34,351 nt of DNA from the IMG/VR virus record IMGVR_UViG_3300035698_015014, positions 1 to 34,351 of that record. The stretch is one strand, 5' to 3'. The notes beneath the pieces were generated by a model. The model was not told where the DNA came from, ran no database searches, and saw nothing but the letters and a program-made list of their open reading frames with translations. This DNA comes from a virus. The position numbers were made by a program, and so were the translations under genes. Below, in pieces: positions 1,776 through 28,940 of this stretch; the first letter of the stretch is position 1; each line of letters opens with the position of its first letter.

Positions 1776-1841
1776 GTGTTCCTTGTTTTATGATCCTATT
1801 AATCTCAATTGGATAATCTTATCATGGGCTAAATAATGGCT

Positions 1842-1887: not shown

Positions 1888-1908
1888 AACCACAAATTCG
1901 GAGACTTG

Positions 1909-2346: not shown

Positions 2347-2365
2347 CTGAAAAGGACACTGAATT

Positions 2366-2575: not shown

Positions 2576-2580
2576 AGTTA

Positions 2581-2632: not shown

Positions 2633-2647
2633 TCGGGAGGTAGATAG

Positions 2648-2797
2648 ATGCACGTTACTTATTTTTATTGTCCAAGCTGCGGATTTGAAGACTGGGATAT
2701 ATATGTAGCCTATGTCAGGCAGATGGCAAACGCAGAACTTTGCGAATGCCCTGAATGCAAAAAGGAGTCATCCCAGTTTCATACTGAGGATTTATAA
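2648..2797 (+). CDS. 49-residue zinc-ribbon protein
   Basis: The ATG at 2648 follows GGGAGG with good spacing. The product has two cysteine pairs, CPSC at residues 8-11 and CPEC at residues 34-37 (with C32 beside them), about 22 residues apart, which is the layout of a zinc ribbon. Such small ribbons in phages often bind nucleic acid or host RNA polymerase, but no specific family is recognised. The stop TAA at 2795-2797 overlaps a second zinc-ribbon frame in another phase. It is preceded by repeat copy 2. Confidence 0.7.
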   Translation: MHVTYFYCPSCGFEDWDIYVAYVRQMANAELCECPECKKESSQFHTEDL

Positions 2798-2919
2798 TTC
2801 TAGAAAATTGGAGAAGACATAGATGTAACTTAGGTAGTCATGCTGGATTCATTGCAGACGGTAAATTTATATGTAAGACATGTGGCTATACTTCCGAATT
2901 ACCAAAGAGAGATAAATAA
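2797..2919 (+). CDS. 40-residue zinc-ribbon ORF without a standard start codon
   Basis: The frame is open from 2788 to the TAA at 2917-2919 and encodes a clear ribbon-like sequence: HRCNLGSHAGFIADGKFICK followed by TCGYTSELP. No ATG, GTG or TTG exists in it. The only start-like codons are ATA at 2794 and ATT at 2797, the latter overlapping the previous stop (TAATT). Its own stop overlaps the next ATG (TAATG). The arrangement implies coupled translation from a rare start codon, or a -1 frameshift joining it to the upstream ribbon. A sequencing error or a decayed gene are alternatives. The start coordinate is provisional. Confidence 0.5.
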   Translation: MLENWRRHRCNLGSHAGFIADGKFICKTCGYTSELPKRDK

Positions 2920-3167
2920 TGCGATATGTAAGTAGATCATCATTTGAAGAAAATTTGCATGCAAAATTTACAATTGAAGAACGTATTAAGGGCTTTTGTA
3001 TTTATTATATAGTGCCATTAGAACTAGGGGAGGAAATGCGAATGCTAAAAGAACCCCGTTCCCGTTTTGATACTCGTTATTATAAGGGTATCAGTACAGC
3101 CATTAATCTATTACGCCAGTCAGGTGTGACTAAAATTAACATACAACTAATGAGTAAACAATTATGA
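2919..3167 (+). CDS. Hypothetical protein (82 aa)
   Basis: It starts at the ATG in TAATG, overlapping the zinc-ribbon frame's stop. The 82 residues are basic, with an amphipathic pattern (FTIEERIKGFCIYYIVPLEL, then ISTAINLLRQSGVTKINIQL). The second half resembles a helix followed by a strand. No motif identifies a family. It is followed with an ATGA overlap by the 32-residue gene at 3164, so it belongs to the same coupled series. Confidence 0.65.
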   Translation: MRYVSRSSFEENLHAKFTIEERIKGFCIYYIVPLELGEEMRMLKEPRSRFDTRYYKGISTAINLLRQSGVTKINIQLMSKQL

Positions 3168-3262
3168 AAGACGACTATACAATAGAAGTAGATACTTGTG
3201 ATAGTCAAGGGCAAGTCTGGTTTATTGATTTAGATAATGATGAATCCTTTTTTCAAAAATAA
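3164..3262 (+). CDS. 32-residue acidic peptide
   Basis: The start ATG overlaps the stop of the preceding gene (ATGA). The product is very acidic (MKDDYTIEVDTCDSQGQVWF, then IDLDNDESFFQK), beta-like, and ends one base before the terminator hairpin at 3264. Short acidic proteins are common host-inhibitor forms in phages, but nothing here shows a target. Position at the end of a coupled series and the following terminator support that it is a real gene. Confidence 0.55.
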   Translation: MKDDYTIEVDTCDSQGQVWFIDLDNDESFFQK

Positions 3263-3263
3263 G

Positions 3264-3294
3264 AGGAGCCTTCGGCTCCTGTTTTGGTGTTTTT
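3264..3294 (+). terminator. Terminator-like hairpin closing the small-gene region
   Basis: AGGAGCC-TTC-GGCTCCT (7-bp perfect stem, three-base loop) begins just after the TAA at 3260-3262. It is followed by GTTTTGGTGTTTTT. The T-rich tail makes termination likely. The core GGAGCC stem is the same as at 101-115, so it may also be a hairpin promoter element read by the virion polymerase. Confidence 0.6.
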
Positions 3295-3340
3295 AAGGGT
3301 ACGTGGAATTGCCCTTAAACTCTAGGGTCGAAAGTACCCC

Positions 3341-3355
3341 AACCGACAAACTTAA
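3341..3355 (+). repeat. 15-nt leader repeat, copy 2
   Basis: Exact second copy of AACCGACAAACTTAA found at 83-97. Here it is followed within 20-30 bases by an A/T-rich stretch. Bases flanking the 15-mer differ between the two copies, so the conserved unit is short, as expected for a polymerase or protein site. Confidence 0.6.
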
Positions 3356-3419
3356 TCGTGTTGAAATTTAGGTGTATATATAAAACTGGTAAGTACTTAA
3401 TTCGATACCACGTTTCCTC

Positions 3420-3446
3420 AAGCCCTATGGTACTCATGGGAGGCTT
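3420..3446 (+). ncRNA. Strong hairpin in the leader
   Basis: AAGCC pairs with GGCTT at the base and CTATG pairs with CATGG (one G-T pair) above, with a two-base bulge and a five-base loop (GTACT). No T-run follows, so it is not an obvious terminator. It could be an RNA processing or stability element for the operon mRNA. The product type is a guess; only the pairing is seen. Confidence 0.35.
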
Positions 3447-3531
3447 GGCTATTTCCTTTAATTAGGCGGAGCTATATCAGGGGATTCTAAACAAAGCCTA
3501 TGGCACGTACTAATTTTAGGAGAATATTACA

Positions 3532-3636
3532 ATGCTAAAAGAATTAATTATTAAATATTTTAATAAAGGAAAATCCGTTTTTTACCGTAGCTCGGGATTG
3601 GTTACAGTAGGTGTGGCTGCTGAAAGAAATATCTGA
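3532..3636 (+). CDS. 34-residue basic peptide
   Basis: The ATG follows AGGAG at nine bases. The product (MLKELIIKYFNKGKSVFYRS plus 14 residues) has an amphipathic basic N-terminal helix. Its 3' half and stop codon lie inside the two-tier RNA hairpin at 3588-3645, which may limit termination or ribosome passage. It could be a leader peptide for the downstream operon (next gene at 3702). Family unknown; being so short, its reality rests on the ribosome site. Confidence 0.45.
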   Translation: MLKELIIKYFNKGKSVFYRSSGLVTVGVAAERNI

Positions 3637-3645
3637 CCCGAGTTA
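3588..3645 (+). promoter_or_regulatory. Two-tier RNA stem-loop ahead of the MoxR gene
   Basis: TAGCTCGGG (3588-3596) pairs with CCCGAGTTA (3637-3645) over nine pairs including one G-T. Inside, CAGTAG (3605-3610) pairs with CTGCTG (3617-3622) around a six-base loop. No T-run follows. It spans the stop codon of the 34-residue frame and ends 57 bases before the start of the replication operon, so an attenuator, processing site or ribosome-stalling element is plausible. Confidence 0.45.
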
Positions 3646-3701
3646 CGTATCTCCTTATCAGGTATTTCACCACAAACCCTTAACCCAATTTAGGAACTCC
3701 G

Positions 3702-4745
3702 ATGAAAACTGAATTTCCAGTTACACTCTCGCAATCTGCGAAACAAGCAAGTCGAGCTATCAGTCGGCAACGTACTGTGATGCTCCATTCGCATCCAGGT
3801 CTGGGTAAAAGTTCTATCCTCAAACAGTTAGCTAAAAAGCATAATTTGTTTGTGATCGACTGGAGAGGCTCTACAGCTGATCCAACAGATCTATCTGGTA
3901 TGCCAGATACTTCAGGTAAGTATGCAACGTATAAACCGTTTGATACTTTCCCGTTAATGAATACCGCTATCCCAATTAATCCTGAAACAAAGCTACCGTA
4001 TAATGGTTGGTTATTGTTAATGGATGAATTTAATTCCGCTCCTCGTTCAGTAATGGCTGCTGCCTATAAACTGATTTTGGATCGTGAAGTGGGTCAACAT
4101 AAATTGCATCCCCGAGTAGCTATTGCTGCTGCCGGTAACTTTGCAACCAGTGGAGCTATTGTTAATCCGATGGGTACTGCTGCTCAATCACGTATGTCTC
4201 ACTTAGTTATTGAGGCAGACTTAACTGAGTTTGTTGAGCATGGTATCAAATCTGGTTTTGATTCTCGTGTACTCGCTTTCGTTGGTCACAGACGTAAACT
4301 GTTGCACAACTTTACACCGGATGTTGTTCACCTATCTTTCACTTGTCCTCGTACTTGGGAAATGGTTAGTGACTATGTTAAAGGTGAAGAAAATGTTCGC
4401 CAATGGTTACCTCTACTTGCCGGTACTATCGGTGATGGGGCTGCTGCTGAATTTGTTACGTTCACAGAACTATCCATTGACTTGCCGAAGTTCGATGAGA
4501 TCGTAATGGCACCAGAAACAACTATGGTTCCTGATGAAGCAGGGCACTTGTACGCAATGGTCGGTACCATCTCTGATGCACTGACTCCTGCTAATGTTGA
4601 TGAAGCTATGAAATACGTTAATCGTATGTCAAAGGAATATCAATATTTGATTGTCCGTGGTGCTTCAGCAAGAGATCCTAATTTGCAATACAAACCTTCA
4701 ATCGATAAATGGATAGAAGAAAATGCAGAATTCCTCTTTGGCTAA
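3702..4745 (+). CDS. MoxR-like AAA+ ATPase (N4 gp24-like)
   Basis: This 347-residue protein has a Walker A motif HPGLGKSS (residues 31-38), a Walker B strand WLLLMDEFNSA (D108, E109), a sensor-1-like AAAGNFA (about 141-147) and a conserved arginine region (QSRMSH, about 161-166). This layout is that of MoxR-type AAA+ proteins, which use ATP to remodel partner proteins and are usually encoded beside a VWA-domain protein. The next gene is exactly such a partner, overlapping by 23 bases. The ATG follows TAGGAACTCCG. It opens the middle operon, as its relative does in N4-like phages. Family and pairing are firm; the substrate in phage infection is unknown. Confidence 0.88.
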   Translation: MKTEFPVTLSQSAKQASRAISRQRTVMLHSHPGLGKSSILKQLAKKHNLFVIDWRGSTADPTDLSGMPDTSGKYATYKPFDTFPLMNTAIPINPETKLPYNGWLLLMDEFNSAPRSVMAAAYKLILDREVGQHKLHPRVAIAAAGNFATSGAIVNPMGTAAQSRMSHLVIEADLTEFVEHGIKSGFDSRVLAFVGHRRKLLHNFTPDVVHLSFTCPRTWEMVSDYVKGEENVRQWLPLLAGTIGDGAAAEFVTFTELSIDLPKFDEIVMAPETTMVPDEAGHLYAMVGTISDALTPANVDEAMKYVNRMSKEYQYLIVRGASARDPNLQYKPSIDKWIEENAEFLFG

Positions 4746-5919
4746 AGCAAAAATGCGTCTGATGACAGACGCAAAAAATGTATTTTTTATTGAGCTAATG
4801 TGCTCACTCGAAATATCTGTTACGGATGAAATTCCGTCTGTGTTTATTAGAAATAACACATTACCTACTGCTTGGACTAACGGGCTAACTATTAAATTCC
4901 ATGTGGATTTTTTAGAAAGTCTGACGGACTCACATGTGTTATTTGTTTTAATGCATGAGTTGATGCATGTAGCATTAATGCATCCACTCCTATTTACCGG
5001 TAAAATTGAAAAGTTATGGTTAGAGGCTACTGACTATTGGGTCAACGATGATCTCAAGCGTAGAAGCTATGACGTAATAGATTGGGCGTTAATTGATTCA
5101 CATCGATTTAACTCAACTAAAATGTCTACTAACCAAATTTATGCTAAGCTGCTTGATGATAAAAAGAATCAGGATGCTAAGAATAAAAAAGACGGTAAGG
5201 CCCCTGGTACTGGAGATACAGATAGAAGTAAAGATCCACTAGCTTTTGATGTATTTCCTAACGAAGGAACCAAAGAACAGATGCGCTATATTGAGCAACA
5301 GGTGAAAGATGCTGTTGTGAAGGCTGCTATTAAAGCTCGTATGGCTGGGCAACCTGGAAGTATCCCTACTGAAGTTCAACGTGCTGTGGATGATTTAGCC
5401 ACACCTAGAGCTGACTGGGCAACCGAATTACAGAGCTATTGCTTTGAACGTTGTCAGGAAGACTACTCTTGGAAAAGACGTAACAGACGATATCAGGATA
5501 TTTACTTACCATCACTTTACAGTGAGCAAATGGGAGAGGTAGAAATTTATATCGACTCCTCCATTTCTGTTGACGATGATTTATTCAAAATGCAGTTCCA
5601 ACAAGTGCGTTGGATTAAACAAAATATGAATCCTAAGAAGATGAGTATTAGCGTTTTCAATACACGTATTAGTGAGCGTAAAGAATTTCTCGAACATGAG
5701 GAATTAGCCATGGAATTTAATGGCTCAGGTGGAACAAGTATTCATCCTGTCATTGCTGACATTATGAAACGCAAACCTCAAATAGCTATCATATTAACTG
5801 ATGGTTATTTTAATAAAGAGGTACCTACACCCCCAACGGACATACTCTGGGGGATTTATAATAATGTAGATTTCACCATGCCTTTCGGTAAGGTTGTTAT
5901 CTTGCCACATGAGGATTAA
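4723..5919 (+). CDS. VWA-domain protein with HExxH metallopeptidase-like N-terminus (N4 gp25-like)
   Basis: The 398-residue product has a zincin-type motif HELMHVALMH at residues 78-87 (H78, E79, H82). A linker of charged repeats follows (about 150-175, NKKDGKAPGTGDTDRSKD). The C-terminal half is a von Willebrand A domain with a metal-binding MIDAS motif DSSIS at 278-282 and later GSGGTSIHP and LTDGYF elements. This combination is known from DUF2201-type proteins paired with MoxR ATPases. It overlaps the ATPase gene by 23 bases, so the two are probably made together. Proteolytic activity is possible because the HExxH is intact, but is not proven. It could instead be a metal-dependent adaptor that presents a target to the ATPase. 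Confidence 0.87.
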   Translation: MQNSSLAKAKMRLMTDAKNVFFIELMCSLEISVTDEIPSVFIRNNTLPTAWTNGLTIKFHVDFLESLTDSHVLFVLMHELMHVALMHPLLFTGKIEKLWLEATDYWVNDDLKRRSYDVIDWALIDSHRFNSTKMSTNQIYAKLLDDKKNQDAKNKKDGKAPGTGDTDRSKDPLAFDVFPNEGTKEQMRYIEQQVKDAVVKAAIKARMAGQPGSIPTEVQRAVDDLATPRADWATELQSYCFERCQEDYSWKRRNRRYQDIYLPSLYSEQMGEVEIYIDSSISVDDDLFKMQFQQVRWIKQNMNPKKMSISVFNTRISERKEFLEHEELAMEFNGSGGTSIHPVIADIMKRKPQIAIILTDGYFNKEVPTPPTDILWGIYNNVDFTMPFGKVVILPHED

Positions 5920-5922
5920 AAC

Positions 5923-6387
5923 GTGTCTATTTTACGGCAACGTAAACAGTCAGGAATTAAGGATTTAAATAATGACTGTTTACATATATTGAACAAAGCA
6001 TTAGAACAATTATTCCAGCCTGCTATTGCTAAAATCACGGCGGATAACCCAGACCTCTGGTTAACATTACCAGAGGAAGATTCAGGTGACTCATTCCTAA
6101 CTCAGATTTATACCTTACACAGGAGCCAGAATGAACGGATGAGGAATTTATCTCGTCATCCCCTTGTTCAACAAATTTATACTGAGGTTAAGAATATTCA
6201 TGCACTGGCTATTAGCTGGGATACGTATGCAAAAGATACTCATGACTTTTCACTCATGTTTCCTCCTTCATTAAATGTATGGGATGCAGATTATGATAAT
6301 GCTCCGTCGAACCTAGCGTTCTTCAAAGAGACTCCTAATTATAAAGTCATGACCAAGCGTTTAATGAAAGCAACTATGGGATTATAA
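5923..6387 (+). CDS. Hypothetical middle protein (154 aa), GTG start
   Basis: The start is GTG, 12 bases after GAGGATT. The protein is helical and soluble, with an N-terminal stretch LNNDCLHILNKALEQLF and a C-terminal Phe/Pro-rich part (DTHDFSLMFPPSLNVWDADY). No nucleotide-binding or metal motif is seen. It follows the VWA gene by three bases and precedes the gene at 6390 by two, so it belongs to the same operon. Middle genes of unknown function also lie between the VWA and helicase genes in N4, so this may be a conserved accessory. I do not recognise it. Confidence 0.75.
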   Translation: MSILRQRKQSGIKDLNNDCLHILNKALEQLFQPAIAKITADNPDLWLTLPEEDSGDSFLTQIYTLHRSQNERMRNLSRHPLVQQIYTEVKNIHALAISWDTYAKDTHDFSLMFPPSLNVWDADYDNAPSNLAFFKETPNYKVMTKRLMKATMGL

Positions 6388-6389
6388 CT

Positions 6390-6683
6390 ATGCGTCCAAG
6401 AGTAAATTTAACAGAGATAGAATCGTCTGGTTATATTAAATTTGATTTTGGCCATAGTACCTCTATCTTAATTACTGAAGATGACCTCACAATATTCACA
6501 GAAATCCTTATGCGTAGTTACGCAATAGATGGTTGGTCGGAAGAGAATTACAAACTAATTGACACCCCTTGGGTGGCGAAACGGATGCCCTTCACTTTAC
6601 TCTCTGATTTAAAGAAAGCAAAAATGTTAGGTAAAGATTTAAGAGAAATTATTAAAGAGAGAAAAGAATATGAATCTTCCTGA
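6390..6683 (+). CDS. Hypothetical middle protein (97 aa)
   Basis: This 97-residue protein starts at ATG two bases after the preceding stop and overlaps the helicase start by 14 bases. It has a strand-rich N-terminal half (SGYIKFDFGHSTSILITEDD) and a basic helical C-terminus (LLSDLKKAKMLGKDLREIIK). No motif is recognised. The close overlap with the helicase gene suggests coupled expression, so a replication-accessory role is a fair but weak guess. Confidence 0.7.
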   Translation: MRPRVNLTEIESSGYIKFDFGHSTSILITEDDLTIFTEILMRSYAIDGWSEENYKLIDTPWVAKRMPFTLLSDLKKAKMLGKDLREIIKERKEYESS

Positions 6684-7914
6684 AACAGCAGAAGTAATCA
6701 ATGTACTTAATGATGGGCAAGAACTTGCTCGTCGTAAAATTGTTTCCTTCCTTGGAGATAAAACTAGAAAGTATATGGTCGTCAATGCCCCATCAGGCTA
6801 TGGCAAAACATTTTTAATGAATCGCATTAAAGATGCCATGGCCCAAATCAATCAGCGTAATAAGTTGATGTCTGCCACCCAGTACACACAATTTATGTTT
6901 ACAGCGACTAGTAATAAAGCTGCAAAGATGCTGGATGATGCAACAACAATTCATAAACTTTTAGGACTTACTGTTTTTAATGATTTTAAAACTGGTAAGA
7001 CCGTGATCAACACAACGAATAGATCTGCGCAAATACCAAATTCGATTATTGTAGTGGACGAAGCGTTCACTCTTAATGATCGTATGCTCGGCTTTATTGA
7101 TAAATTCACCGACACTAGTAAAGTTATCTTCGTGGGAGATGAAGTCCAGCTCTACCCTGTAAATAGTAAAACTATGCCATTAACTGAAAAAAGTTATTTG
7201 ACTGCTGCACTGGATGAACCCATGCGTCAGGATAAAGACTCCCATTTATTTAAAACTTGCCAGCATTTACGTGCATGTGTCGAACAACAAGTTAGACCAC
7301 AAATTCAACAAGGCCCGGGTGTTCGATTCATTACGGATTCTAAGCAATTTCTAACTGAAGTTGTTGATTCATTCAAAGCTGAAGAAGATGCCAAAGTAAT
7401 AGCCTACCGGAACACTCAGGTAGTGGGTATTAATCAATACATCCGTAAGCAGCTAGGTATGGAACCGGACTGGCAGGCTAAGGATCACATCCTATTTAAG
7501 AACAGCTGTCGGCTAATGAACGATAAGGATGTTAGAGTCCATGTCGAGTCAGAAGCTGTGATCCACAGTATTGCAGAAAGTAATACCTTGCTAAACGATC
7601 TTGATTTCAATATCGTAAAACTCACCAATGGCGATACAATCCGAGTAGCTAAGAATCAAAAAACTTGGAAAGCTGAAATCGCTAAAGCAAAACGAGCTGC
7701 TGATTGGGTAACCAAATTCAGCTTAGAAGAAAACTTCGCTGATATTCGCAGCTCTTATGCATCCACTTGTCACTCTGCCCAAGGTAGTTCCTACGAAAGA
7801 GTATTTATCGATTACGCCGATATGGTTGGTTGCTACGATCTCAACACCTTCCTACGTATGATGTATGTGGGTGTTAGTAGAGCGAAAACAGAAGTCGTCA
7901 TCTACGGTATTTAA
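6670..7914 (+). CDS. SF1 DNA helicase, Dda/RecD-like (N4 gp37-like)
   Basis: The 414-residue protein has superfamily 1 helicase motifs in order: Walker A NAPSGYGKT (about 39-47), TATSNKAA (Ia region), motif II VVDEAF (D130, E131), motif III VGDEVQL (155-161), motif V-like TCHSAQGSSYERVFID and motif VI VGVSRAKTEVVIYG near the C-terminus. The compact size and the motif II DEAF match phage Dda-type 5'-to-3' helicases, which help start replication and strip proteins off DNA. It sits directly before the DNA polymerase gene, as in N4. The ATG lies just after the basic run AGAGAGAAAAGAAT. The family is well supported; the polarity is from family knowledge. Confidence 0.92.
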   Translation: MNLPETAEVINVLNDGQELARRKIVSFLGDKTRKYMVVNAPSGYGKTFLMNRIKDAMAQINQRNKLMSATQYTQFMFTATSNKAAKMLDDATTIHKLLGLTVFNDFKTGKTVINTTNRSAQIPNSIIVVDEAFTLNDRMLGFIDKFTDTSKVIFVGDEVQLYPVNSKTMPLTEKSYLTAALDEPMRQDKDSHLFKTCQHLRACVEQQVRPQIQQGPGVRFITDSKQFLTEVVDSFKAEEDAKVIAYRNTQVVGINQYIRKQLGMEPDWQAKDHILFKNSCRLMNDKDVRVHVESEAVIHSIAESNTLLNDLDFNIVKLTNGDTIRVAKNQKTWKAEIAKAKRAADWVTKFSLEENFADIRSSYASTCHSAQGSSYERVFIDYADMVGCYDLNTFLRMMYVGVSRAKTEVVIYGI

Positions 7915-16501: not shown

Positions 16502-16688
16502 CAGTCCCTTTTATGCCCTGCTTGGATTGATAGGTATATTTTTTATTACAATATTCTTATTAATGAAACAAGCGATATGGCTGTTCTTCTGTTTTTGGAT
16601 GGCGGTGTTATCGTTTATAGCAGGGATGGTTTGGGGATTTCTTCTGTGGCTGGGTTCATTTGCCACAGAAGAAGAAGATGAACCTTAA
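16494..16688 (+). CDS. Small two-helix membrane protein with TTG start
   Basis: The start must be TTG 16494, because the only ATG in frame would remove the first membrane helix. The product has two hydrophobic segments (about 8-22, ALLGLIGIFFITIFLL; 27-53, AIWLFFCFWMAVLSFIAG and onward) and an acidic tail EEEDEP. The topology could be that of a holin or of a membrane anchor, but there is no lysis gene beside it. It overlaps the previous gene by eight bases. Its TAA stop shares bases with the opposing vRNAP stop. Confidence 0.55.
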   Translation: MSSSPFYALLGLIGIFFITIFLLMKQAIWLFFCFWMAVLSFIAGMVWGFLLWLGSFATEEEDEP

Positions 16689-19600
16689 AGAGGTGCAAGT
16701 ATTGGTAATGTGAAAAAACCCATTAACATATCTATGATTCCTGTTTTATACAATAAATCAGTTTGTAGTAAGTTACCGTCAAATGGTGTTGGGACTCCTA
16801 TCCCGAAACCATTGGTCAACAACATTGCCAATACCCTTGTTGGGTTCTCCACGGCCATATCAACAAGCACCGACTGAATACGAATAAAATATTTAAAGAA
16901 ATGTGTCATTCCAATATCATTTAAATACTGCATTGTCTTACTAGGTAATGCACCGTAGTCAATGAACTCAACAGCAACTTTCGCCATTGCTACATCCTTA
17001 CTCAAAGGATTCTTAGCTCTAGTTGTGTAATGTTGATACAACGCAAACTTCGCAACAAAATCCCCTAACTCGATAGCTTCATTCAGAACACCGTAGGCTT
17101 TGGAACTCTTAGAAAAAATAGCTTCCTTACCCACATCTTGTAAACTTTTTGGTAATACTGTAGTAACGTTATCTATTTTAGCCATCAAATCGTTCTGCAT
17201 TGAAAACAAACTATCATGTTCCCCCAAGTCCTCAACAACTGTCGGCATCAATCCAGCTTCCACCAACTCGGTGATTGGATTCTTCGCCAGTATAGTTTCT
17301 AATTCGGCAATCTGAGCAGCCAACAAATCCGTTGGATTAATCTCATGCCTATCCTGTAATTCAATCAACTCCCTATTTACTTTTTTATAATCCCGAGCAG
17401 CTTTAATAGCTACAGAACTACTCTCCACTATCGATGCAATTGGTACACCCCGTAACGTTAATGCAGCCACGTTAGAAATAATATTCACCACCGGTACCAC
17501 TACTGATTTAACGATGACGAAATCTTTAGCTTGTTGGATCAGCTCCTGCAGACCACGTTCCCCTTTACGGGCAATCTTCGCTGCATCTTCACCCAGTACC
17601 TTTGTCAGGATCGTAACGGTTCCTCTGGCAATCGCACCTTGGTCTTCCCACAAATCCAACACCGAGGCTTTACGAAAGCCCAGTGCATTGTTATAGCTCA
17701 TCTTGTTCACATACAGGATGCTTGATCCCGTAGCTTCTTTTTGAGCAGCCTTTACCGAATTAGGTAACAAGGCATATGTCTCACGGATCATAGGATCAGA
17801 CGATTTAGGTGAGATAGCAATGAAGCGTTTTTTCTCTTCAGTACTGGCTCTCCGGTATTCATCATTCAAGGCTTGTACCAATTTTTGGTTATGCACATTA
17901 CCGGTACGCTCTTCAACTAAACGAGCATCCCAGTGGGATAGTACCTGCTCAATATTATTGACTCGGCCCATCTCATTATTTTTAACAGCCTGGTTCACCG
18001 TGTAACGGTAACTGGCCACTCGTCCATTAGGCGAGAATGAGGGGACCAAACTGCTGACCGGAGTATTTACCGATACCCGGGCTTCACTTAATTTCTGCAT
18101 ACCGGATTTTTTCTGCATGTGTATCCGGCCCATGTCCTGATGGGTATACGTAGGACCTACCGCATTGATCGCTTTACCGGTAAATGGGTTCACACCCCCG
18201 ATGTTACCGTCGATCAGGGTCAATACCCCCTGCAGGAAGCCCACACTGCCACCCTCCGATGAGTAAGCTTCGAATAATGGCTCAGTATTGATATCTGAGG
18301 GATCTCGTTGTACCCGCTTACCGATGCTGTAACCACGGTTTTTGTATTTTTTACGCTCAGACGCCTTGATAATCTTGAAGGATTTATTAGGGTCCAACAA
18401 ATCGTAAGTGAAACCCTTGGTCTGGGTGTAAGCCCCATTGCCATTAACAGCCTCTTTCTCTTTGTTTTTGAGATTACGCTGCTTGTCCATGGCGTATTTA
18501 ATACCCTCCACACCACCATCTTGAGCTATTAGCTCTCTGACTGCTGTAATGTCAGCTTCTGGCATAGTTTTGAGGGCATACAGCGAGGCTAATCCCTCGA
18601 TCAGCTGCTTACCTGCCGAAATAGTTTCGCTGCTATAGGCCCCCATATTGCCTTCTAAAGGGTGAGAACGCATTTCTGCTACTACCGTGGCATTAGGCAT
18701 CTGATTTTCCAGATAAATGTCACCGGTAATCATGGTTTTACCCATGTGCTCTGCCTGATTGGCATACCAAATTTTCATCTCATTGCTGACTGGCAAATCA
18801 CGAATAGCCTGTTCGGTACTGGCAATAACTGACTCAGTGCTGATCTCTCCGTTTATTAAACGAATCACATCCGCATTCGAGGTACCCATATCCACTAATG
18901 AGCCAAGATCTGTTCGGGATACCACGTTGGTAACACTGGCACTTTGAGCAGGTGTGAACTCAGCGCCGAAATGGGATCTGATTTCCCCTGGTAAAAAATC
19001 TCTCCGGTGCTGGGAACTCGAATCCACCGCTTCCACTTTTTTACGCTTAGCATCTTGAATACGTTTGGAGTCTTTATTACCCCCTTTGAACTCATTAGCT
19101 CCTTCAGCGAGGAAACCCATGCGGTTAGCCCCACCGGCACCGATAAGGTGATCGGTTAATTTACTCAACACCTCACCTTTATCGGTTACCCCATCAGGCA
19201 TTAAATTAGATGCCAATGCGAAAGCCTTGATCTTGGAATGCTCACCGATGAAAGCGTTACCACGGATGGCAGAAGTCAGCTTCGTTACACCGGACTTAAT
19301 CAAGTGGTCACTGGTATCGAACATAGTGTCCATACCGAACTGTAATTGCTGTGCTGCGTTAGACCGCTTATTCACGACATGGTGAATCCGCTTAGCAAAC
19401 AAATTTAGCTTACGAGTCGGAGCCATATGAGAATGATCACTACCCATAGCTTTGGATAGTGAGTCCAGCACCCCTGTTATAAAATTCTCCACCTCTTCAA
19501 TAAATGAGCCAGACTTAATTCTGATTCCCTTATTGGGGAGGTTTGAAATCATGGTAGCGAATTCAGGATTAACTTTAGCCATTGCTAAAAAGTTACCTAG

Positions 19601-22600
19601 AAATTGTTCGGGTCTTTTGTTGGCCGACAGGAAGATGGCATCCCATTTACGTTGGGCTTCTGCATCTGTTGCAGATACGAAATCCCCCGGCTTAAGAGAT
19701 GTTCTCGCATGGTCATATAATTCCCGTAAACCTTTAGCGTTATAATAATTACCCTGCAACGCAGTGTGAGTAGCTTCGCTGTAAAGTTTAAATACCATTG
19801 CTTCTTTGGGATCAAGATTAAACCCTCCTTCAACTAGATCAGAAAATGATGCATTAACTTCAGGGTCAATGGCATCGACAAGTAATTGGTCTTCTACGTT
19901 AGTGATGTTCTTTATTTCATTGGGAATATTTTCCAGCTTACTCACAACACTACGATGGATCTGATTGAATGCCCCCCGTAGTTCCGGACTCAATGTGCCC
20001 ATCAAGTTATTAAATACTTGAGTAGCATTGATAGAACGATCAAACGTTTGTGAATACAACGGTGCTGTAATATCTGGAGCAGACTTATCCATGAGTGGCT
20101 TAATGGAATACACCACACCAGCTAAATCAGTGAAGGCACTGGCTTTCACATTGACACCTAATACCTGAGTGATATAGCTAAACAGCTTTCTGATTAACTT
20201 ACCGAAATAAGGACTCTTGCCAAAAGGAGTACCGTCTACTGTTTGTAGATAGGCTAATACTCCATCCTGTGTCAGACCTTCTGCTGCAAATTCTTGCAAG
20301 GCAGTACGTAAGTCTACTGGACGTTGTGCTCGATCAGGATTTCTGATTGACCGGTTATAAAAACGAACAATATTAACTAAATGAGGATGCTCTTTATGTT
20401 TTGGATCTTTAGACACATTTTTTAACAGCTCTTCCATACCTTTAATGGCATCGAACTGGACAGCATTGAAGCCTTCAGTAGCTTTTAATTCAGCTGAAGT
20501 TTTATCTTTATTCTGTACGTAGAAAATAACAGCATCATCCATAATGGCATGAACCATTTCATGATAGATAACATTATCCCGTGTGGCTCTGTCTAACCCT
20601 TTACGGTAACGCACTGTTTTAGTTTTAGCATCGTAGGCTCCATTTACCGTGTCACCCTTACCATCAATTTCATCCACTTCCTTAAAAGTAATACCTTCGA
20701 AGAAAGCATCATTCTTTTTCAGGATGAGTGACTTCAGTAAACCGACCTCAGTTTCTGTGTCCAAGGATTTAGCCACCGCTTTACGCATGGCAATAACATA
20801 GGGCTGACGAACAGACTCCCCATATTCAATGGAGTTACCAAATTCCTTATTCTTCTGCTTAGCAGCATGGCCTTGCACTACACCATCTCGGATAGTGGAT
20901 TGACCACCATCAATACCGGCTAAGTTATTGTATGCAGCATCACCTGCCAAGGTGATATTTTTCACCTCAGTAGCGTCTTTGGCTATACCTTCAAGGTTAG
21001 CCGATAACGGTGTAATGAAATCAATAATATCTTCATACGCTAGTTTAGTTCTATCATGCCCTTGCTCTTCATCTTTTTGAAAGTCAGGCCCAAATATTTC
21101 TCTGAAAATAGATTTAATTGATGGGTTAGACTGCGCCAAAGTATGCAACGTATAATTATCAATGGACTCTTTAGTTTTAAGCCCACCATCCTGTGCTTTC
21201 TTATTGGCGTTAGTCATTAAGGACACATCACCGATCATGCCTTTAACAATCATAATACCGGCATCCCGAGGACTATACGTAGAGCCATCAAAGATAGGAT
21301 TATTTGCCAATGCCCGTTTGTGGGTATTATTAATGGCTTCCATCATGTTGTAATCACGTACTGCAATATAACCGGCAGCGTTGATCGTATCATTTGAACC
21401 AGAAATATTATCCAGCTTGGCCATGATTGCATCGTGGATATTTGTATCCAAGGCATTGCCTTGCATTTCTTTGTGTAATAGCTGCATGGCTGCATCAATA
21501 GAGATCGTTAATGCTGCAGCTAAACTCACACCGATAGAATCAAAGCCGATATCATGAGAATCTATTTTAGTTTCCCCAATCGTATTCGGTCTGAATAGAT
21601 CGGTAGCACCATTCTTGTATTCAACTGAATGAAATTCAGAAGGGTTCCAGTAGGTGCTGTAATCCCCTTCTTCAGAAAACATCATCTGATAGGTTGGGGA
21701 AGCTAAAATTAATTCCTGTTTAATACTGTCAAATTGTTCTTCAGAAAGGTCACTGTTCTTTTGTAACTCACCATCTGCAATTAATTGATTGCGTAACTCA
21801 TTACGCTTTTGAATAAACAAAAAGTTATAGGCACCACTGATAATATTAGAAGAGACAATACTGGCTTGTCTATTTTCTAATACATTAGCTAAGTAATTAG
21901 TTGTAGCTGCTCCTAGAGCTTTACCATATGACTTTTGATAAGTTTGCAGTATCGATTCTATTCCCGCATCACTAACAGTAAACTTAGCAATTTCCGCAAC
22001 AAGTTCTGAATTCTTAGCAGGGACGGATTTAGTATCTGCTTGCCCAACTAGAATATTGTACTGTTCTAGGAAGGTCTGCATTTTACTTAAGACAGCAGTT
22101 TGTTGTGCTTTAGTAGAACCTTCTCCATTCGCTGCTACGGCTTCCTGTAATAAGAAATCAGCACTGGCATACATACCGGCTTCCATCTCTCTAACAGCAG
22201 CAACATCTGTACTGTATTGAGAAGCACCATACCCTGTTTGTGTGGTTCTACCTTTAGACGCATTACGTGTTAACTCGATACCTGCATCAGTTATTTCTAC
22301 TTGCTCAGTTAGAAAGTAGTTTAATGCAGGGGTCACTCTATTCCAGAAATTAGCAGCCCAAGCTCTTTGGCCAGGTCTAATTGAAGGGTCCTCACTGCGA
22401 GCAATACCAGCTGCAAAAATTCTCTCGTATATAGCATCAGCATCTGCTGAAATAGCATTGTAAGTATCTAGATCAGTATTCCCTTCCCGCATCTCATTAT
22501 AAGCAACATCCTGGTTGAGAAATAAACCACCCCGTTCTAATTTACGTAATAGCTTTTCATCCAGTTGAGTGCTTACCTGCAATAACGTATTGAATGGGCC

Positions 22601-25459
22601 GTTAGTTACACCATCAATCTCATAATATAAAGAGGTATCAAAGGTATCCCCTACCGCTGCATTTTCAACAAATTCCTGATAACGAGCATATTCAACCAAT
22701 ACCTGCATTGAATGCTCTTTCTGCCTGCCTTTATCAATAGCAGCTTTTAATAAATCCTCATCTAAATCTATGGTTCCATTTATTGCACCACGTAAATTAG
22801 CAGTCACATTGATCATACCAGTGCTACTTAACAATTTAGCTAATTGCACAATAGAGGTAGTGTTACCCTGCTTATCCACATCCAACCCTAAGCCTTGAGC
22901 AACAGCTAGCAATACCATTTTATGGGTCTGCTCGTTGACAGCACCTTTCGTCAAAGTGGTTTGTGTATTAACAAACGAACGAATTAGTTTATCGGCTTGA
23001 GGATTAATATCCGAGTCCATGAACTGACGATAGTTTTGAGCGAAGTTGGTTCCAATAAAGAAATCCTGCTCCTCTACTTGCTTACCATTATTTTCCACTC
23101 GGGTACGCAGATTTTGCAAATGGTCATACGCTCTCACTAGTTGCAGATTTTTACCTTTAGCTGATTTAGCAAAATTGGGATTACGTACACCGGTCAGATC
23201 TGTGAAACCGAATAAGGATAGAAAGCTATCACGGTCCATCTGATCCATAAGTGAATACATGGAGGCACTGGCAGCGTAGGCAGTTTTATTTCCCTTAGCA
23301 GCGGCTTCTTTAGCTCGCTTACTAATACGTTGCTTTGACCCGATAAAGGTCTGAGCTATACGTGTGATCGGTTCAAAGGACAAGGTACCTGTTGTCCGGT
23401 TAGAACCAGTCAATAGTTGGGAAATCCGATTGGATGTTTCACCTAACTTAGCTTTCTGCTTATAGTCTTCTTCCAATTCTGGAGACATGTTTTTAGGCAA
23501 GCCAGCAAAATAGCGTTTACCAGGTGAAAAGGAATCATCATCTTTTGTGGTTATCTTGTTTGCCCGTAAAACAGCGATGGTTTCATTGGTTACTTCGTTT
23601 CGCACAAGCTTTTTCTGATCGAACATATAATCCAATAGCTCATTACCTATCGCATCACTGACTGCTTTGGGAATATTCTGTGATCCCTTATTGGATTTTA
23701 AACCCATAGTGGAAATAACATCGGCACCTAGAGGACCACGTAAAGTGCTAACCGGAACACCCATTTCACCTAATGCATCTCGGGCACCAGCAGGTAAAGA
23801 TTGCTTACTGTCGATACCTAAAAAGCGTTTAATCGCTTCATCACTGATACCTGCTAATCTACCGAATTCATAATGAATCATATTGGTAGCAACTAGGCCC
23901 ATGGCATCAATGAATTCAGGTAAGAGATCCCCATTCTCATCTGCAAAATTCAGGATAGGAACAGTGTTACGCATCTGCTCTGGGGTCTTAGTAAATTTTG
24001 TTTTTACTTTAGCTGATAAGTATTTTTCTACTGATGCCCGAACCTCTGGGTATACCGTAGTTAATATTTCTTGATCAGCTTCAGTGAGTGTTCCTTTCAC
24101 ACCAGCATCATCGACTAACTTTTGTTGTTGTTCGATATCTTGAGTTGTACTCAAGCGATGTAATAGATTGGCAACTTTTGTTGTGGGGCTATTTTTCTTA
24201 CCAAAAAATTTAGCTACTTGATTTGTTAAGTAACCCAATAGAGTGACATCTTTATACCGTTCCTCACTCAGTTTGGAGGACTCTCGGTATTGTTCCAATG
24301 TTTGAACAGGTGAATTTAAACGGGTAAGTATGTCACCCCCTTCTCGGGCACCTAATGTGTACAGTGGCTGACCATCAGTAGCTTCGATAGTGCCATTATT
24401 GTGTTTAATATTTTCAGGATTAACATTAACGATATAGCCATCGTTTTCTAGCTTCTGCCAGATCCGTTGGTTCGCTGTAGATACCACTTTACCGGAAGCC
24501 AAAGTAAAACCTTTAGCCTGGGTAAAATTAATCAGCTCATTAAATAAAACTTTATCTAATCCCTGACCCTGATTCTTTTCTGACAGTGGAGCAATGCGTA
24601 CAACGTACTGACCATTGCCTAAATGCTTAGCAATAATTTGGTCTTCATCAACAGCCCCATTCTTTAAGGGGATAGTAATCGTGTCATTACTGTCGGTAGT
24701 TGTGATTTCTCCTAACCGGGCATCCTGAGAATCATAAGTAACCCTATCCCCAATTTCTTGGGTAGGTGAATATTGTTCGGAATGCAGCACCCCTTGGGGT
24801 GCTGCAGTACCCTCACCCATTGCATACCCCATAGCCTCTAAAGCTTGTAAATTAGCCCGTAGCTCCATGGCTAATTTATCGGCAGTCAGGTAGTCCGTTT
24901 TACTTTGATCAAAATAGACCGCTGGATCACCATTATTAATATGAGCTTGCTCATGTCGAACCAGGAATTCTTGTACCCGTTCAGGGGTATTTATGAACTC
25001 TTTAAGCGAGGCTGTGGTAATACCTTGCTCTGCCATCTGAGCCAACACTACTTTCTTCTGTTGGCTCGTAAAGCCCTCTACCCCACCTTTGAAATAGAGG
25101 AAGAATTCGTCAACAGTGATATTCGGATTAACAATAATTTTACCTTTACGGGTAACGGCTAATACGGTGCCAAGACTGGCATCCTCTGTGTAGATTGAGC
25201 CATAACGATCAACCACTTTGGTTGGATCATTCGGGACTTGTAAGTCAGCAGGGACCTCACCACCAGCTTCAGAAATTTCTTCAGCAATAGTGCCACCTTC
25301 TGATATCCACCGGTTAAGCAAACTCTCTACTGCAGCAATATTCGCTTCTTTTTCAGTCATACCTTCAGCTTGTTTCAGATCACTAACCGTAGTTAGGTAA
25401 ACTCGATCTGCTGCTTTAAGGCCACTGCCTGCTTTCTTCATGCAACCTAGTAAACTCAA
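16685..25459 (-). CDS. Giant virion RNA polymerase (N4 gp50-like)
   Basis: This 2,924-residue protein has T7-like single-subunit polymerase motifs: NYR with R811 plus INPQ in the TxxGR region, motif A IDGVTNG (D949), motif B R1065-NAS-K1069...Y1077-G, and motif C NIHDA (D1343). From memory, N4 mini-vRNAP has these at R424, D559, R666/K670/Y678 and D951. The intervals (138, 116, 278 here; 135, 107, 285 in N4) agree well. That places the polymerase core near residues 390-1490. The C-terminal 1,430 residues match N4's long tail; the N-terminal part is about 600 residues shorter. It also has HEQAH (169-173), a GNAT-like QGQGLDKVLF (near 297) and HEMVH (1633-1637). In N4 it is packaged, enters the host with the DNA and transcribes early genes from hairpin promoters. 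TTG start chosen for GGAG eight bases upstream; ATG at 25441 is possible. Confidence 0.92.
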   Translation of the reverse strand: MSLLGCMKKAGSGLKAADRVYLTTVSDLKQAEGMTEKEANIAAVESLLNRWISEGGTIAEEISEAGGEVPADLQVPNDPTKVVDRYGSIYTEDASLGTVLAVTRKGKIIVNPNITVDEFFLYFKGGVEGFTSQQKKVVLAQMAEQGITTASLKEFINTPERVQEFLVRHEQAHINNGDPAVYFDQSKTDYLTADKLAMELRANLQALEAMGYAMGEGTAAPQGVLHSEQYSPTQEIGDRVTYDSQDARLGEITTTDSNDTITIPLKNGAVDEDQIIAKHLGNGQYVVRIAPLSEKNQGQGLDKVLFNELINFTQAKGFTLASGKVVSTANQRIWQKLENDGYIVNVNPENIKHNNGTIEATDGQPLYTLGAREGGDILTRLNSPVQTLEQYRESSKLSEERYKDVTLLGYLTNQVAKFFGKKNSPTTKVANLLHRLSTTQDIEQQQKLVDDAGVKGTLTEADQEILTTVYPEVRASVEKYLSAKVKTKFTKTPEQMRNTVPILNFADENGDLLPEFIDAMGLVATNMIHYEFGRLAGISDEAIKRFLGIDSKQSLPAGARDALGEMGVPVSTLRGPLGADVISTMGLKSNKGSQNIPKAVSDAIGNELLDYMFDQKKLVRNEVTNETIAVLRANKITTKDDDSFSPGKRYFAGLPKNMSPELEEDYKQKAKLGETSNRISQLLTGSNRTTGTLSFEPITRIAQTFIGSKQRISKRAKEAAAKGNKTAYAASASMYSLMDQMDRDSFLSLFGFTDLTGVRNPNFAKSAKGKNLQLVRAYDHLQNLRTRVENNGKQVEEQDFFIGTNFAQNYRQFMDSDINPQADKLIRSFVNTQTTLTKGAVNEQTHKMVLLAVAQGLGLDVDKQGNTTSIVQLAKLLSSTGMINVTANLRGAINGTIDLDEDLLKAAIDKGRQKEHSMQVLVEYARYQEFVENAAVGDTFDTSLYYEIDGVTNGPFNTLLQVSTQLDEKLLRKLERGGLFLNQDVAYNEMREGNTDLDTYNAISADADAIYERIFAAGIARSEDPSIRPGQRAWAANFWNRVTPALNYFLTEQVEITDAGIELTRNASKGRTTQTGYGASQYSTDVAAVREMEAGMYASADFLLQEAVAANGEGSTKAQQTAVLSKMQTFLEQYNILVGQADTKSVPAKNSELVAEIAKFTVSDAGIESILQTYQKSYGKALGAATTNYLANVLENRQASIVSSNIISGAYNFLFIQKRNELRNQLIADGELQKNSDLSEEQFDSIKQELILASPTYQMMFSEEGDYSTYWNPSEFHSVEYKNGATDLFRPNTIGETKIDSHDIGFDSIGVSLAAALTISIDAAMQLLHKEMQGNALDTNIHDAIMAKLDNISGSNDTINAAGYIAVRDYNMMEAINNTHKRALANNPIFDGSTYSPRDAGIMIVKGMIGDVSLMTNANKKAQDGGLKTKESIDNYTLHTLAQSNPSIKSIFREIFGPDFQKDEEQGHDRTKLAYEDIIDFITPLSANLEGIAKDATEVKNITLAGDAAYNNLAGIDGGQSTIRDGVVQGHAAKQKNKEFGNSIEYGESVRQPYVIAMRKAVAKSLDTETEVGLLKSLILKKNDAFFEGITFKEVDEIDGKGDTVNGAYDAKTKTVRYRKGLDRATRDNVIYHEMVHAIMDDAVIFYVQNKDKTSAELKATEGFNAVQFDAIKGMEELLKNVSKDPKHKEHPHLVNIVRFYNRSIRNPDRAQRPVDLRTALQEFAAEGLTQDGVLAYLQTVDGTPFGKSPYFGKLIRKLFSYITQVLGVNVKASAFTDLAGVVYSIKPLMDKSAPDITAPLYSQTFDRSINATQVFNNLMGTLSPELRGAFNQIHRSVVSKLENIPNEIKNITNVEDQLLVDAIDPEVNASFSDLVEGGFNLDPKEAMVFKLYSEATHTALQGNYYNAKGLRELYDHARTSLKPGDFVSATDAEAQRKWDAIFLSANKRPEQFLGNFLAMAKVNPEFATMISNLPNKGIRIKSGSFIEEVENFITGVLDSLSKAMGSDHSHMAPTRKLNLFAKRIHHVVNKRSNAAQQLQFGMDTMFDTSDHLIKSGVTKLTSAIRGNAFIGEHSKIKAFALASNLMPDGVTDKGEVLSKLTDHLIGAGGANRMGFLAEGANEFKGGNKDSKRIQDAKRKKVEAVDSSSQHRRDFLPGEIRSHFGAEFTPAQSASVTNVVSRTDLGSLVDMGTSNADVIRLINGEISTESVIASTEQAIRDLPVSNEMKIWYANQAEHMGKTMITGDIYLENQMPNATVVAEMRSHPLEGNMGAYSSETISAGKQLIEGLASLYALKTMPEADITAVRELIAQDGGVEGIKYAMDKQRNLKNKEKEAVNGNGAYTQTKGFTYDLLDPNKSFKIIKASERKKYKNRGYSIGKRVQRDPSDINTEPLFEAYSSEGGSVGFLQGVLTLIDGNIGGVNPFTGKAINAVGPTYTHQDMGRIHMQKKSGMQKLSEARVSVNTPVSSLVPSFSPNGRVASYRYTVNQAVKNNEMGRVNNIEQVLSHWDARLVEERTGNVHNQKLVQALNDEYRRASTEEKKRFIAISPKSSDPMIRETYALLPNSVKAAQKEATGSSILYVNKMSYNNALGFRKASVLDLWEDQGAIARGTVTILTKVLGEDAAKIARKGERGLQELIQQAKDFVIVKSVVVPVVNIISNVAALTLRGVPIASIVESSSVAIKAARDYKKVNRELIELQDRHEINPTDLLAAQIAELETILAKNPITELVEAGLMPTVVEDLGEHDSLFSMQNDLMAKIDNVTTVLPKSLQDVGKEAIFSKSSKAYGVLNEAIELGDFVAKFALYQHYTTRAKNPLSKDVAMAKVAVEFIDYGALPSKTMQYLNDIGMTHFFKYFIRIQSVLVDMAVENPTRVLAMLLTNGFGIGVPTPFDGNLLQTDLLYKTGIIDMLMGFFTLPILAPL

Positions 25460-25505
25460 TGTAATGTCTCCATGGTCTTAACAATACTGGAGCTAGTAGC
25501 TTTAT

Positions 25506-28500
25506 TCATTTAGATACACACCCCAATAATTTTTCGAGCATATTACCCCGAGTACGGTGTCTCCGTAAAACAGTTGCTGCGTTTAATTTAATAGTCTCTT
25601 CAACTGTGTTGCCATCCTTATCTTTAAACTCACTTACATCTTCTCTGATGAATAAATCCTTTAAGGGAGTAGTTTTAGCTATAGGCTCAGGTTGCAACTC
25701 CTCCCTGATGGGAGAAGCCGCAGCATCTTCTCTTGCCTGAAGTTCAGCGTATGCATCCCCAGCTTCAGCAGAAATATCATCTTCATTGGTAGCTGGATTT
25801 TCTGACTCAACAACAGGAGCGGCAGCAGTCGTTTCAACCGGTGTATTAATGGATTGATCAATTGGATCAGCTAATGCTTGGTAAGTACCGGCAAGGTTAT
25901 CCAACTGCTGTAAGGCTGCTGTGGCTACTTCACCATCTTTGGTAATACCTTCAGCAAACTTATTATCTGGACCTGGATTTACCCCTTGTGGCCTCGATTT
26001 ATCTTCTACCGTATTACCCTCACCATCTATTTTCATAGAGTAATAAAAGTCACCATTAGGCTTCTTTAAAGGTACTCGTCTTCCGGTCCTATTTGCTTCT
26101 GCTCTGGCTATCCGAAATGCTTGTACTTTAGCCAACCGTTCATCAGCAAATCGTTTTATATCAGCGGTGGCTGTAGCAATACCGGCAACATCATTGATCT
26201 GCATTTTGGCAGCTAGATTACCGAACTTGTCCTTAAAACCTTGGAAGGACATTTTGGTTCCATCACCGGTACCCTTGTACACCTGCTGAGTGACTTCTAA
26301 GGCCGTTTTGTGATTAGCTACCTTGCGTATCTGATCCCGAGCAACGGCTGTACCAGCCCCTGTAGCGTTAGCCAGATCAGCTATCCCCGTAGTCTGCTTT
26401 GCATTGAAGGAAGAATCATCTCCCATATCCTGAGAATAGAGTGCTTGGGTCATCAATAAGTCAATATTATCGATGTCCTGCTTATCCTGATTGGCAATGC
26501 CTTCAGCTAATTTAGCACCGGCATCCAATACTTTTTCAGGATCACCATTAGCCCGGGTTAATAATTCATTCAGGGTAGTAATGGATGTCTCATCAGGAAC
26601 CAATATTTGACCCATCTGAGCCAGATAACCTGAATCTCGGGTCAATATCTCTTTAGCTGCTTTGGCGTTGGTATCACCCTTAGCGATAGCTTCATCCAAC
26701 ATTGCGATAGTGTTAATAACTTCATACGCATTTTTGGCTATCTCATGCTTAGGTGCACCAGCAGCGAAGGAAGCTTTCAGTGCTTTGATCTTCTGAACTT
26801 GATGAGCAATCATACCCTTAGCTACGGGTGTTAATTCCTCTTTCTCTTCTGTTTCAGTCGCTGATTCCATTGCATCAGTATCAACCTGAGTAACAGAAGT
26901 TTGCGTATTCAGTGTGGTACCTGCTTCTAATTCAACTGGTCCCAAAACTTTATCAGTAATAGCTTTAGCACCCTTGGCCAATGTTCTACCGGTTGCCTTG
27001 GGTAATTCAGATATGCCGACTACACCACTACCTGCAGCGATACCAATAACTAAGCCAGTACCTGCACTCGATGCTGCATCTTCAAAAATATCCTTATCAG
27101 CATTGGCCGTATCTCTTTCTGAAATATTCCCTACGATGGTACCTGTACCACCTTGGCCCAATTCCTCAGCACCTTCACGAATACCCGCTATTGCCACATC
27201 ACCTGAAGTACGGACAAGTCCAGCTTTACCAGGGGTAGCTAATTTAGTTTCTGCAAATGCACCACCGGTTAACTTGGTAATAGCGAGAGCCAATACACTT
27301 TGAGTGGCTCCAGCTTTAGCTGATTCATCTAAGGCTAATTGTTCCCGAGCATCTTCTGGTGACATGTAATCAAGATATGCACGGAAGTCAGATGATGTTT
27401 TTTCTAGATCCTCAAATGAGGCAGCATTTACTGTATTAAAAGTTTGGGTACCTGTAGAAGCACCTTCAAGTACAGCGGTTGACTTAACAGCTGAATTAAC
27501 GGTAGCCAAGTTAATATCTTTTTTGGCTTTTTTGGTTGCTGCAACAGTAGCTGCATCACCCATATCTATTTTATGTTGTGCCCGGAAAGTAGCCAATTGG
27601 TCTGTATCTATTTTATCTCTTTGTCCATCCGAATTTAGATCATCCCTTTCAGCATCTCGCGTAGGACGTTTATCTGTATCCTTACCTTTATACACATCCG
27701 CTGTTAAATCAGAAGTTTGCTCAGCATCTTTACGAGCTTTAGTAATATCAACATCTGCTTTTTTGGTAGCTGCTTTTCTTGCTGTACTTGCAACGCTACT
27801 GGCAGTTAATAATGAACCAAGACTTTCGGCTGTACCGACAGCAATCTCTTCAAAATCAGCAGAGGTGACCGCATTACTTAATTGATCAAATTGATTTGCA
27901 ATTCTATCCAAGCGACCAGCATCTTTGGGTAATGCAGCATCCGCAGCTTTGTTATATTCCTTTCTATCCCCTGCTCGATCCTCAGACCGTTCTTTGTAAC
28001 CGATGGTTTGTAGATTTTTCTTCAGGTCATCAATCCGCTTAACAGCTTTGTTTGGCTGAATAATTAAAGCTTCTCGAATACCCTCTTTCACATAGTCTAA
28101 TGCAGAAGGGGTTTTATGGACTGGGGAATCAAACCACGGGTCATCAGTAATACTCTCCTTTAAGTTAGGGGTACCACCCAGCATTTCATCACCGGTTTCC
28201 CAGAGAGTTTCACCAACATCCACTGCTGTTTTAATAGGATTCAACGCAGCTGTAGCAGCAAAGGATACTACTTGAGGAACAATCTTAGAAGATTCCAGAA
28301 ATCCACCAATAGCCATGTTCCGGCTATCTTCTAAAAATGAAGATGTATCGTAACGTGAAGTATCGACATATTTACCTGAGTGGTAATCAACAAACTCCCT
28401 ACCGGCAGCAACACCGTACTTGCCGATATAATCTTGCATACCTAGAGTATCAAGATCTACGACTTGCTGTTGTTGCTGTGGAGTAGCCCCTTTAACTTCA

Positions 28501-28940
28501 GCTACTTTTCTGCTTTTAGCACTAGTAACCTTTTGCTGCTTGTCTTTTAATTTGGCAAGCTTCTGATCCAACTTAGTTGGTGGCTTCAGAATTGGGGAGT
28601 CGAATACAGGTAATGGATTACCTGTACTATCTACGGTAGGGTTGGTTTGATTCGAAGAAAGAAAATCTGGGATATTCGGCTGGCGTTCAGCATTTAATGC
28701 TGCTTGAACTTGAGAAGAGTTTCTCTGCATAAAACCGAATTCGCCTACCCGATCTTTCCCCTCAACAATGGTTGTAGGTACTTCAACAGGAAGGGGATGA
28801 CCTTTACTTGCTTTAATTAAGTCTGCACGAGAACCCCCTCCACTCATCGCATCAATTTGCAAATTCTCAATAGCCGATATTCCGAGGCTATCTTTCATAT
28901 TCGCAAATTTAGCCAAATCGTACTGTTTAGTTGTTGCCAT
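25506..28940 (-). CDS. Large internal virion protein (N4 gp51-like)
   Basis: The 1,144-residue protein lies directly upstream of the vRNAP gene in the late operon, 46 bases apart. It is Ala-, Lys- and Asp-rich and mostly helical with several charged stretches (KLAKLKDKQQKVTSAKSRKV). Around residues 585-645 it has REGAEELGQGGTG followed by a glycine-rich hydrophobic run AGTGLVIGIAAGSGVVGI. E-G-x-E-E-x-x-Q followed by a glycine-zipper is typical of large phage internal proteins, which may insert in the host membrane during DNA and polymerase entry. Start ATG follows AGGGTATAAGT. By position and size it fits N4 gp51; enzymatic motifs are not seen. Confidence 0.75.
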   Translation of the reverse strand: MATTKQYDLAKFANMKDSLGISAIENLQIDAMSGGGSRADLIKASKGHPLPVEVPTTIVEGKDRVGEFGFMQRNSSQVQAALNAERQPNIPDFLSSNQTNPTVDSTGNPLPVFDSPILKPPTKLDQKLAKLKDKQQKVTSAKSRKVAEVKGATPQQQQQVVDLDTLGMQDYIGKYGVAAGREFVDYHSGKYVDTSRYDTSSFLEDSRNMAIGGFLESSKIVPQVVSFAATAALNPIKTAVDVGETLWETGDEMLGGTPNLKESITDDPWFDSPVHKTPSALDYVKEGIREALIIQPNKAVKRIDDLKKNLQTIGYKERSEDRAGDRKEYNKAADAALPKDAGRLDRIANQFDQLSNAVTSADFEEIAVGTAESLGSLLTASSVASTARKAATKKADVDITKARKDAEQTSDLTADVYKGKDTDKRPTRDAERDDLNSDGQRDKIDTDQLATFRAQHKIDMGDAATVAATKKAKKDINLATVNSAVKSTAVLEGASTGTQTFNTVNAASFEDLEKTSSDFRAYLDYMSPEDAREQLALDESAKAGATQSVLALAITKLTGGAFAETKLATPGKAGLVRTSGDVAIAGIREGAEELGQGGTGTIVGNISERDTANADKDIFEDAASSAGTGLVIGIAAGSGVVGISELPKATGRTLAKGAKAITDKVLGPVELEAGTTLNTQTSVTQVDTDAMESATETEEKEELTPVAKGMIAHQVQKIKALKASFAAGAPKHEIAKNAYEVINTIAMLDEAIAKGDTNAKAAKEILTRDSGYLAQMGQILVPDETSITTLNELLTRANGDPEKVLDAGAKLAEGIANQDKQDIDNIDLLMTQALYSQDMGDDSSFNAKQTTGIADLANATGAGTAVARDQIRKVANHKTALEVTQQVYKGTGDGTKMSFQGFKDKFGNLAAKMQINDVAGIATATADIKRFADERLAKVQAFRIARAEANRTGRRVPLKKPNGDFYYSMKIDGEGNTVEDKSRPQGVNPGPDNKFAEGITKDGEVATAALQQLDNLAGTYQALADPIDQSINTPVETTAAAPVVESENPATNEDDISAEAGDAYAELQAREDAAASPIREELQPEPIAKTTPLKDLFIREDVSEFKDKDGNTVEETIKLNAATVLRRHRTRGNMLEKLLGCVSK

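Follow-up and report, generated by a model that had tools for sequence, protein, structure and literature searches.

The closest described counterpart of the protein considered here is gp50, the virion RNA polymerase (vRNAP) of coliphage N4 (PDB 9pnq, 9pnr and 11gp), a single chain of 3,500 residues with a short linker, in which the RNA polymerase (RNAP) domain is followed by domain C1, carrying the only HExxH motif of the protein, and then by domain C2. The zincin-like nature of C1 was described by Iyer et al. in 2017 (PMC5512222) and restated later (PMC8472413), and C1 is a named domain in the cryo-EM work on N4 reported in a 2025 preprint (PMC12633501). Iyer et al. also defined a class of polyvalent proteins that includes a zincin-like metallopeptidase (MPTase) fused to an N4-like RNAP, as well as ART, lysozyme and PBECR domains; GNAT acetyltransferases joined to a vRNAP are not among the combinations given in the parts of that account cited here (PMC5512222). 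In addition, vRNAPs have been published as cysteine-free proteins (PMC3915230, PMC2784036).

The window analysed here is the whole stretch of 34,351 nucleotides of IMG/VR virus record IMGVR_UViG_3300035698_015014, a metagenomic fragment of 34 kb. The open reading frame 25459..16685 on its minus strand, starting with TTG as read or with the alternative ATG, matches the vRNAP family profile phrog_2206 with E = 0, residues 396–2918 corresponding to profile positions 897–3398, as well as the N4 vRNAP chains in the PDB (E 1e-75) and the Pfam model PF21867 (vRNAP_dom_2). The catalytic set of the polymerase is present, with R811 (the T/DxxGR arginine), D949 of motif A, and K1069 and Y1077 of motif B invariant or nearly so in an alignment of the window with nine phage vRNAPs. 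The order RNAP–C1–C2, the near-absence of cysteine, and a gene that adjoins those of ejection proteins are further features shared with N4 gp50. On these grounds the product, referred to below as chain 2, can be assigned as the polymerase and C-terminal half of an N4-type (Schitoviridae) vRNAP. The original prediction had called it a vRNAP and was correct as to the polymerase family, but the frame lacks the N-terminal domain (NTD) and thus does not encode the whole protein. Unlike N4, the window carries two chains and an accessory segment of about 400 residues at the linker (Table 1).

Table 1. Features of the vRNAP locus in the window (positions are those of the window; residue numbers of domains refer to chain 2).
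Feature	Position	Strand	Extent	Evidence or landmarks
vRNAP chain 1, N-terminal (ejection/membrane) domain, separate ORF	25506..28940	-	1144 aa	phrog_2206 profile 21-866, E 2.5e-20
Break between chains	25459..25508	-		ORF1 stop TGA 25508-25506; TTG start 25459; alternative ATG 25441
vRNAP chain 2 (RNAP + C1 + C2, lineage-specific N-terminal segment)	16685..25459	-	2924 aa	phrog_2206, N4 PDB chains
Candidate second zincin	24815..25234	-	residues ~76-215	HEQAH 24941-24955; candidate third ligand E199 24863-24865
Segment called GNAT-like	24344..24742	-	residues ~240-372	QGQGLD 24554-24571; motif only
Single-subunit RNA polymerase domain	20960..24274	-	residues ~396-1500	phrog_2206, PF21867, catalytic residues
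C1 zincin-like domain	20078..20911	-	residues ~1517-1794	HEMVH 20549-20563; third ligand E1723 20291-20293
C2 domain	16715..20092	-	residues ~1790-2915	HMM match across full C2 model

The reading that we prefer, with a probability of about 0.6, is that of an N4-type vRNAP made of two polypeptides, with an ordinary C1 zincin and with an accessory segment at the linker that probably includes a second zincin. Such a protein is a new form of the already known class of polyvalent ejected proteins: as in the proteins described in the cited parts of Iyer et al., an N4-like RNAP is combined with at least one zincin-like MPTase and with accessory domains, although, unlike in those, the accessory segment of the window matches none of the domains published there by sequence. 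The original prediction had itself likened the protein to the polyvalent proteins that phages deliver with their DNA. This comparison holds insofar as RNAP and a zincin share one chain and inserts occupy the linker in relatives, with delivery alongside the DNA taken over from N4, but its acetyltransferase component does not stand, as discussed below.

Translation of the frame places both predicted zincin motifs where they had been claimed, HEQAH at residues 169–173 and HEMVH at residues 1633–1637, flanking the polymerase core with all four catalytic residues between them. Since only 0.044 HExxH motifs would be expected by composition in a chain of the same make-up, their number is above chance. 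The second motif lies in C1, just after the polymerase, and it aligned with an HExxH in every examined vRNAP that reaches this region. When 59 vRNAPs were aligned, four columns of C1 and no others were invariant throughout (100%), namely H1633, E1634, H1637, and E1723, so that both the motif and the third ligand sought in relatives are strictly retained; by analogy with other Glu-zincins, these residues can be interpreted as the zinc ligands and the catalytic base. The C1 profile matches the solved C1 of N4 in the PDB with E 1e-95, C1 is similar to phrog_87, a family of phage metallo-proteases (E 2e-4), and weak matches of the profile extend to SprT/Spartan and thermolysin. The claim of a zincin-like site within an ejected polymerase is therefore borne out for HEMVH by the four invariant residues and the phrog_87 match, and C1, judged from its sequence, is a conserved, already known, and ordinary part of the vRNAP family. 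Nothing else in this domain, which nearly every vRNAP possesses, is conserved as strictly as its zincin site. Recombinant N4 vRNAP shows no degradation, which counts against a protease reading (PMC12633501), and the parts of the published accounts cited here show neither an activity nor a substrate of C1 (PMC5512222, PMC8472413, PMC12633501). The C1 profile also matches internal virion or ejection proteins (9sfn_G, 417–562, E 1e-19; 8vb2_A, 301–497, E 5e-4), and this type of zincin may be shared by ejected proteins other than the vRNAPs.

The segment of approximately 400 extra residues that precedes the RNAP in chain 2 is situated at the flexible linker between NTD and polymerase, and it is absent from about 80 relatives. 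Its codon usage fits that of the rest of the frame in the right frame only, and beyond residue 6 it contains no cysteine, like the rest of this cysteine-free family; both properties indicate that the segment is coding. It probably contains a diverged second zincin, and a C-terminal α/β part. The case for the zincin starts from HEQAH, followed 26 residues later by E199 within the sequence E-L-R-A-N-L-Q-A. The corresponding pattern E-x-x-A-N-x-x-A resembles those that supply the third zinc ligand in several zincin families. Of the HExxH motifs in shuffled sequences, 0.7% bear this pattern at that distance (a conditional chance of about 0.007), and both elements together at zincin spacing were found in 6 of 200,000 shuffles. 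A single-sequence AlphaFold2 model places strands, then a helix with HExxH, and then a helix with E199, but with low confidence (pLDDT 50–75 locally, mean of 41 overall), and fold searches with this N-terminal model returned globins and other unrelated helical proteins as the best matches, an uninformative outcome.

What can be said against a second zincin is mostly the isolation of the segment. No homologue of it was identified in the phage, plasmid, IMG/VR, and bacterial sequences searched. When the whole segment or either half was compared by tblastn with phage and plasmid sequences, the matches did not exceed chance level; IMG/VR and bacterial genomes, scanned with single sequences of the N-terminal segment and of C1, gave no relative; and searches of 50 related records and 299 genomes yielded nothing firm. 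Similarly, no domain profile matched the candidate zincin, and when the N-terminal segment bearing HExxH was compared by profile with the alignment of C1, no similarity emerged. The profile MPTase-PolyVal (PF18818) has no match anywhere in the window, although C1, an accepted MPTase, is likewise unmatched by it. An additional HExxH located N-terminal to the RNAP is also found in a 5′-truncated vRNAP from IMG/VR (L085), but the extra domains of that protein are clear copies of C1, whereas the motif of the window is not detectably related to them, BLASTP of the N-terminal segment against this vRNAP showing no similarity. HEQAH could thus be a chance motif in a lineage-specific expansion of the linker, with C1 as the sole zincin, the more so because linker inserts in relatives are often charged and helical, with no named domains. 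We consider this quite possible; the rarity of the combined motif at zincin spacing and the local succession of modelled elements argue against it. The motif and a candidate ligand of the claimed first zincin are in place, its family membership lacks homologues and profile matches, and a second, diverged zincin is plausible.

The gene itself is split at the linker between NTD and RNAP, a new point, with the membrane-binding NTD encoded by its own upstream frame: profile positions 1–866 are absent from chain 2 and are matched by that frame, and the best phage matches of ORF 28940..25506 in tblastn are the NTDs of intact vRNAPs. A single chain is typical of the family, although it is not required for homology, and wherever both ends of a vRNAP are available, in nine reference phages and about 80 IMG/VR loci, it forms one chain, with two exceptions (L065 and L090). 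If the break came from a sequencing or assembly fault, the protein would be a single chain of about 4,070 residues whose linker bears an ordinary insert, in agreement with the single chains of all well-sequenced relatives and with the first of the two exceptions, which is broken at the same place and has another frameshift. A lone sequencing frameshift was rejected as the cause, since there is no overlap between the open frames: after the stop of the first comes a gap where both frames are closed, and then the TTG start preceded at 8 nt by GGAG, so that one indel does not suffice. At least two errors would be needed to produce this gap, and the presence of GGAG also speaks against a fault. For a metagenomic fragment an assembly error retains some residual likelihood, but we regard it as unlikely. 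If the split is genuine, no covalent link is required between the polymerase and the ejection domain.

In the first exception, NTD and RNAP (610–7748) lie in different, overlapping frames, with a further break in C1, a pattern that would correspond either to sequencing frameshifts or to a second split. In the other (2229–4785), a stretch of about 2.5 kb that may be an intron interrupts the RNAP domain between neighbouring model positions (807 and 819); Rfam gave no match in the window and none at gathering score in this interruption.

The most far-reaching form of the original prediction combined a zincin, a GNAT acetyltransferase, the polymerase, and a second zincin in one multi-enzyme takeover protein. 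The sequence on which the GNAT was based, QGQGLDKVLFNELINF, is indeed found in the minus-strand translation, starting at residue 297 (24524–24571). It resembles GNAT motif A, and the order strand–turn–helix–strand–helix is compatible with this fold. GNATs are present in other polyvalent proteins, and two weak matches point in the same direction, namely a Firmicutes GNAT-like frame aligned over a typical motif A (L095, E 0.025, among about 300 genomes) and the sole plasmid match to the segment, which is annotated as GNAT (E 4). On the other hand, QGQGLD ends in aspartate, a charged residue instead of the small one expected at the last position of the acetyl-CoA turn [RQ]xxGx[GA], and in this it is unlike a GNAT turn. 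No GNAT family in Pfam (E 10) or NCBIfam matches residues ~240–372, and Acetyltransf_1 (PF00583) and Acetyltransf_7 (PF13508) find nothing in the segment even when the search is confined to the 34-kb record. The best genome match (L094, E 1.8e-5) is an SLH-type protein and not a GNAT, and a degenerate DNA pattern for the motif had one match, in an unrelated frame. The structure prediction proposed as a check was uninformative, with pLDDT under 50 here in both models. The GNAT identity is not supported and is not accepted, and the multi-enzyme protein appears improbable.

Chain 1 and chain 2 contain one cysteine each in their 1144 and 2924 residues, both at the break, that of chain 2 counting only if TTG is the start; the vRNAPs of relatives are nearly free of cysteine by count as well. 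As these are the only two cysteines, one may speculate that they join the chains of a natural two-subunit vRNAP, parted from its ejection domain at the linker and bearing an N-terminal cassette of a new zincin family and a diverged acyltransferase-like domain, which is the least probable of the readings considered. The two cysteines lie in EKLLGCVSK, immediately before the stop (25506–25528), and in LSLLGCMKK (25435–25459); the DNA of these two stretches resembles an imperfect direct repeat, so that a recent duplication and a functional pair of thiols are equally likely.

To return to the two-polypeptide vRNAP with an accessory segment, its insert fits a pattern seen in relatives, which carry other inserts at the same linker. 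The extent of the linker in 76 chains, extrapolated to the model ends, has a median of 11 residues, with outliers of 247–341, and the region between NTD and RNAP is, as a second new point, a hotspot for accessory domains. By analogy with N4, both chains would be packaged and ejected with the DNA, after which the polymerase would transcribe the early genes. In C1, H1633, H1637, and E1723 would be the zinc ligands and E1634 the base, and after entry the domain might cleave a protein of the host or of the phage; we know of no vRNAP with established protease activity. The linker would serve as a cargo bay in which Schitoviridae insert accessory effector domains, and in the lineage of the window, where the gene is split at this site, the cargo would be carried at the new N terminus of the polymerase chain. 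New anti-host functions could be sought in this linker, where different effector-like domains are exchanged.

The inserts themselves are diverse. Klebsiella phage Pylas (L011, 8096–8998) has a DprA/SLOG-like domain in the vRNAP linker (phrog_768, 1.8e-13), and another locus (L038, 7745–9037) has an ART-PolyVal-like domain at this site, with an E-value of 0.0023 that is below the curated cut-off. Two further vRNAPs (L045, 8048–9130; L068, 765–1682) apparently have in common an unnamed insert (SPWL-ADG-V...DHIS...), recognized by eye. In the 5′-truncated vRNAP mentioned above (3–1682), the two additional zincins of C1 type upstream of the RNAP carry the motifs HELIH and HEVIH.
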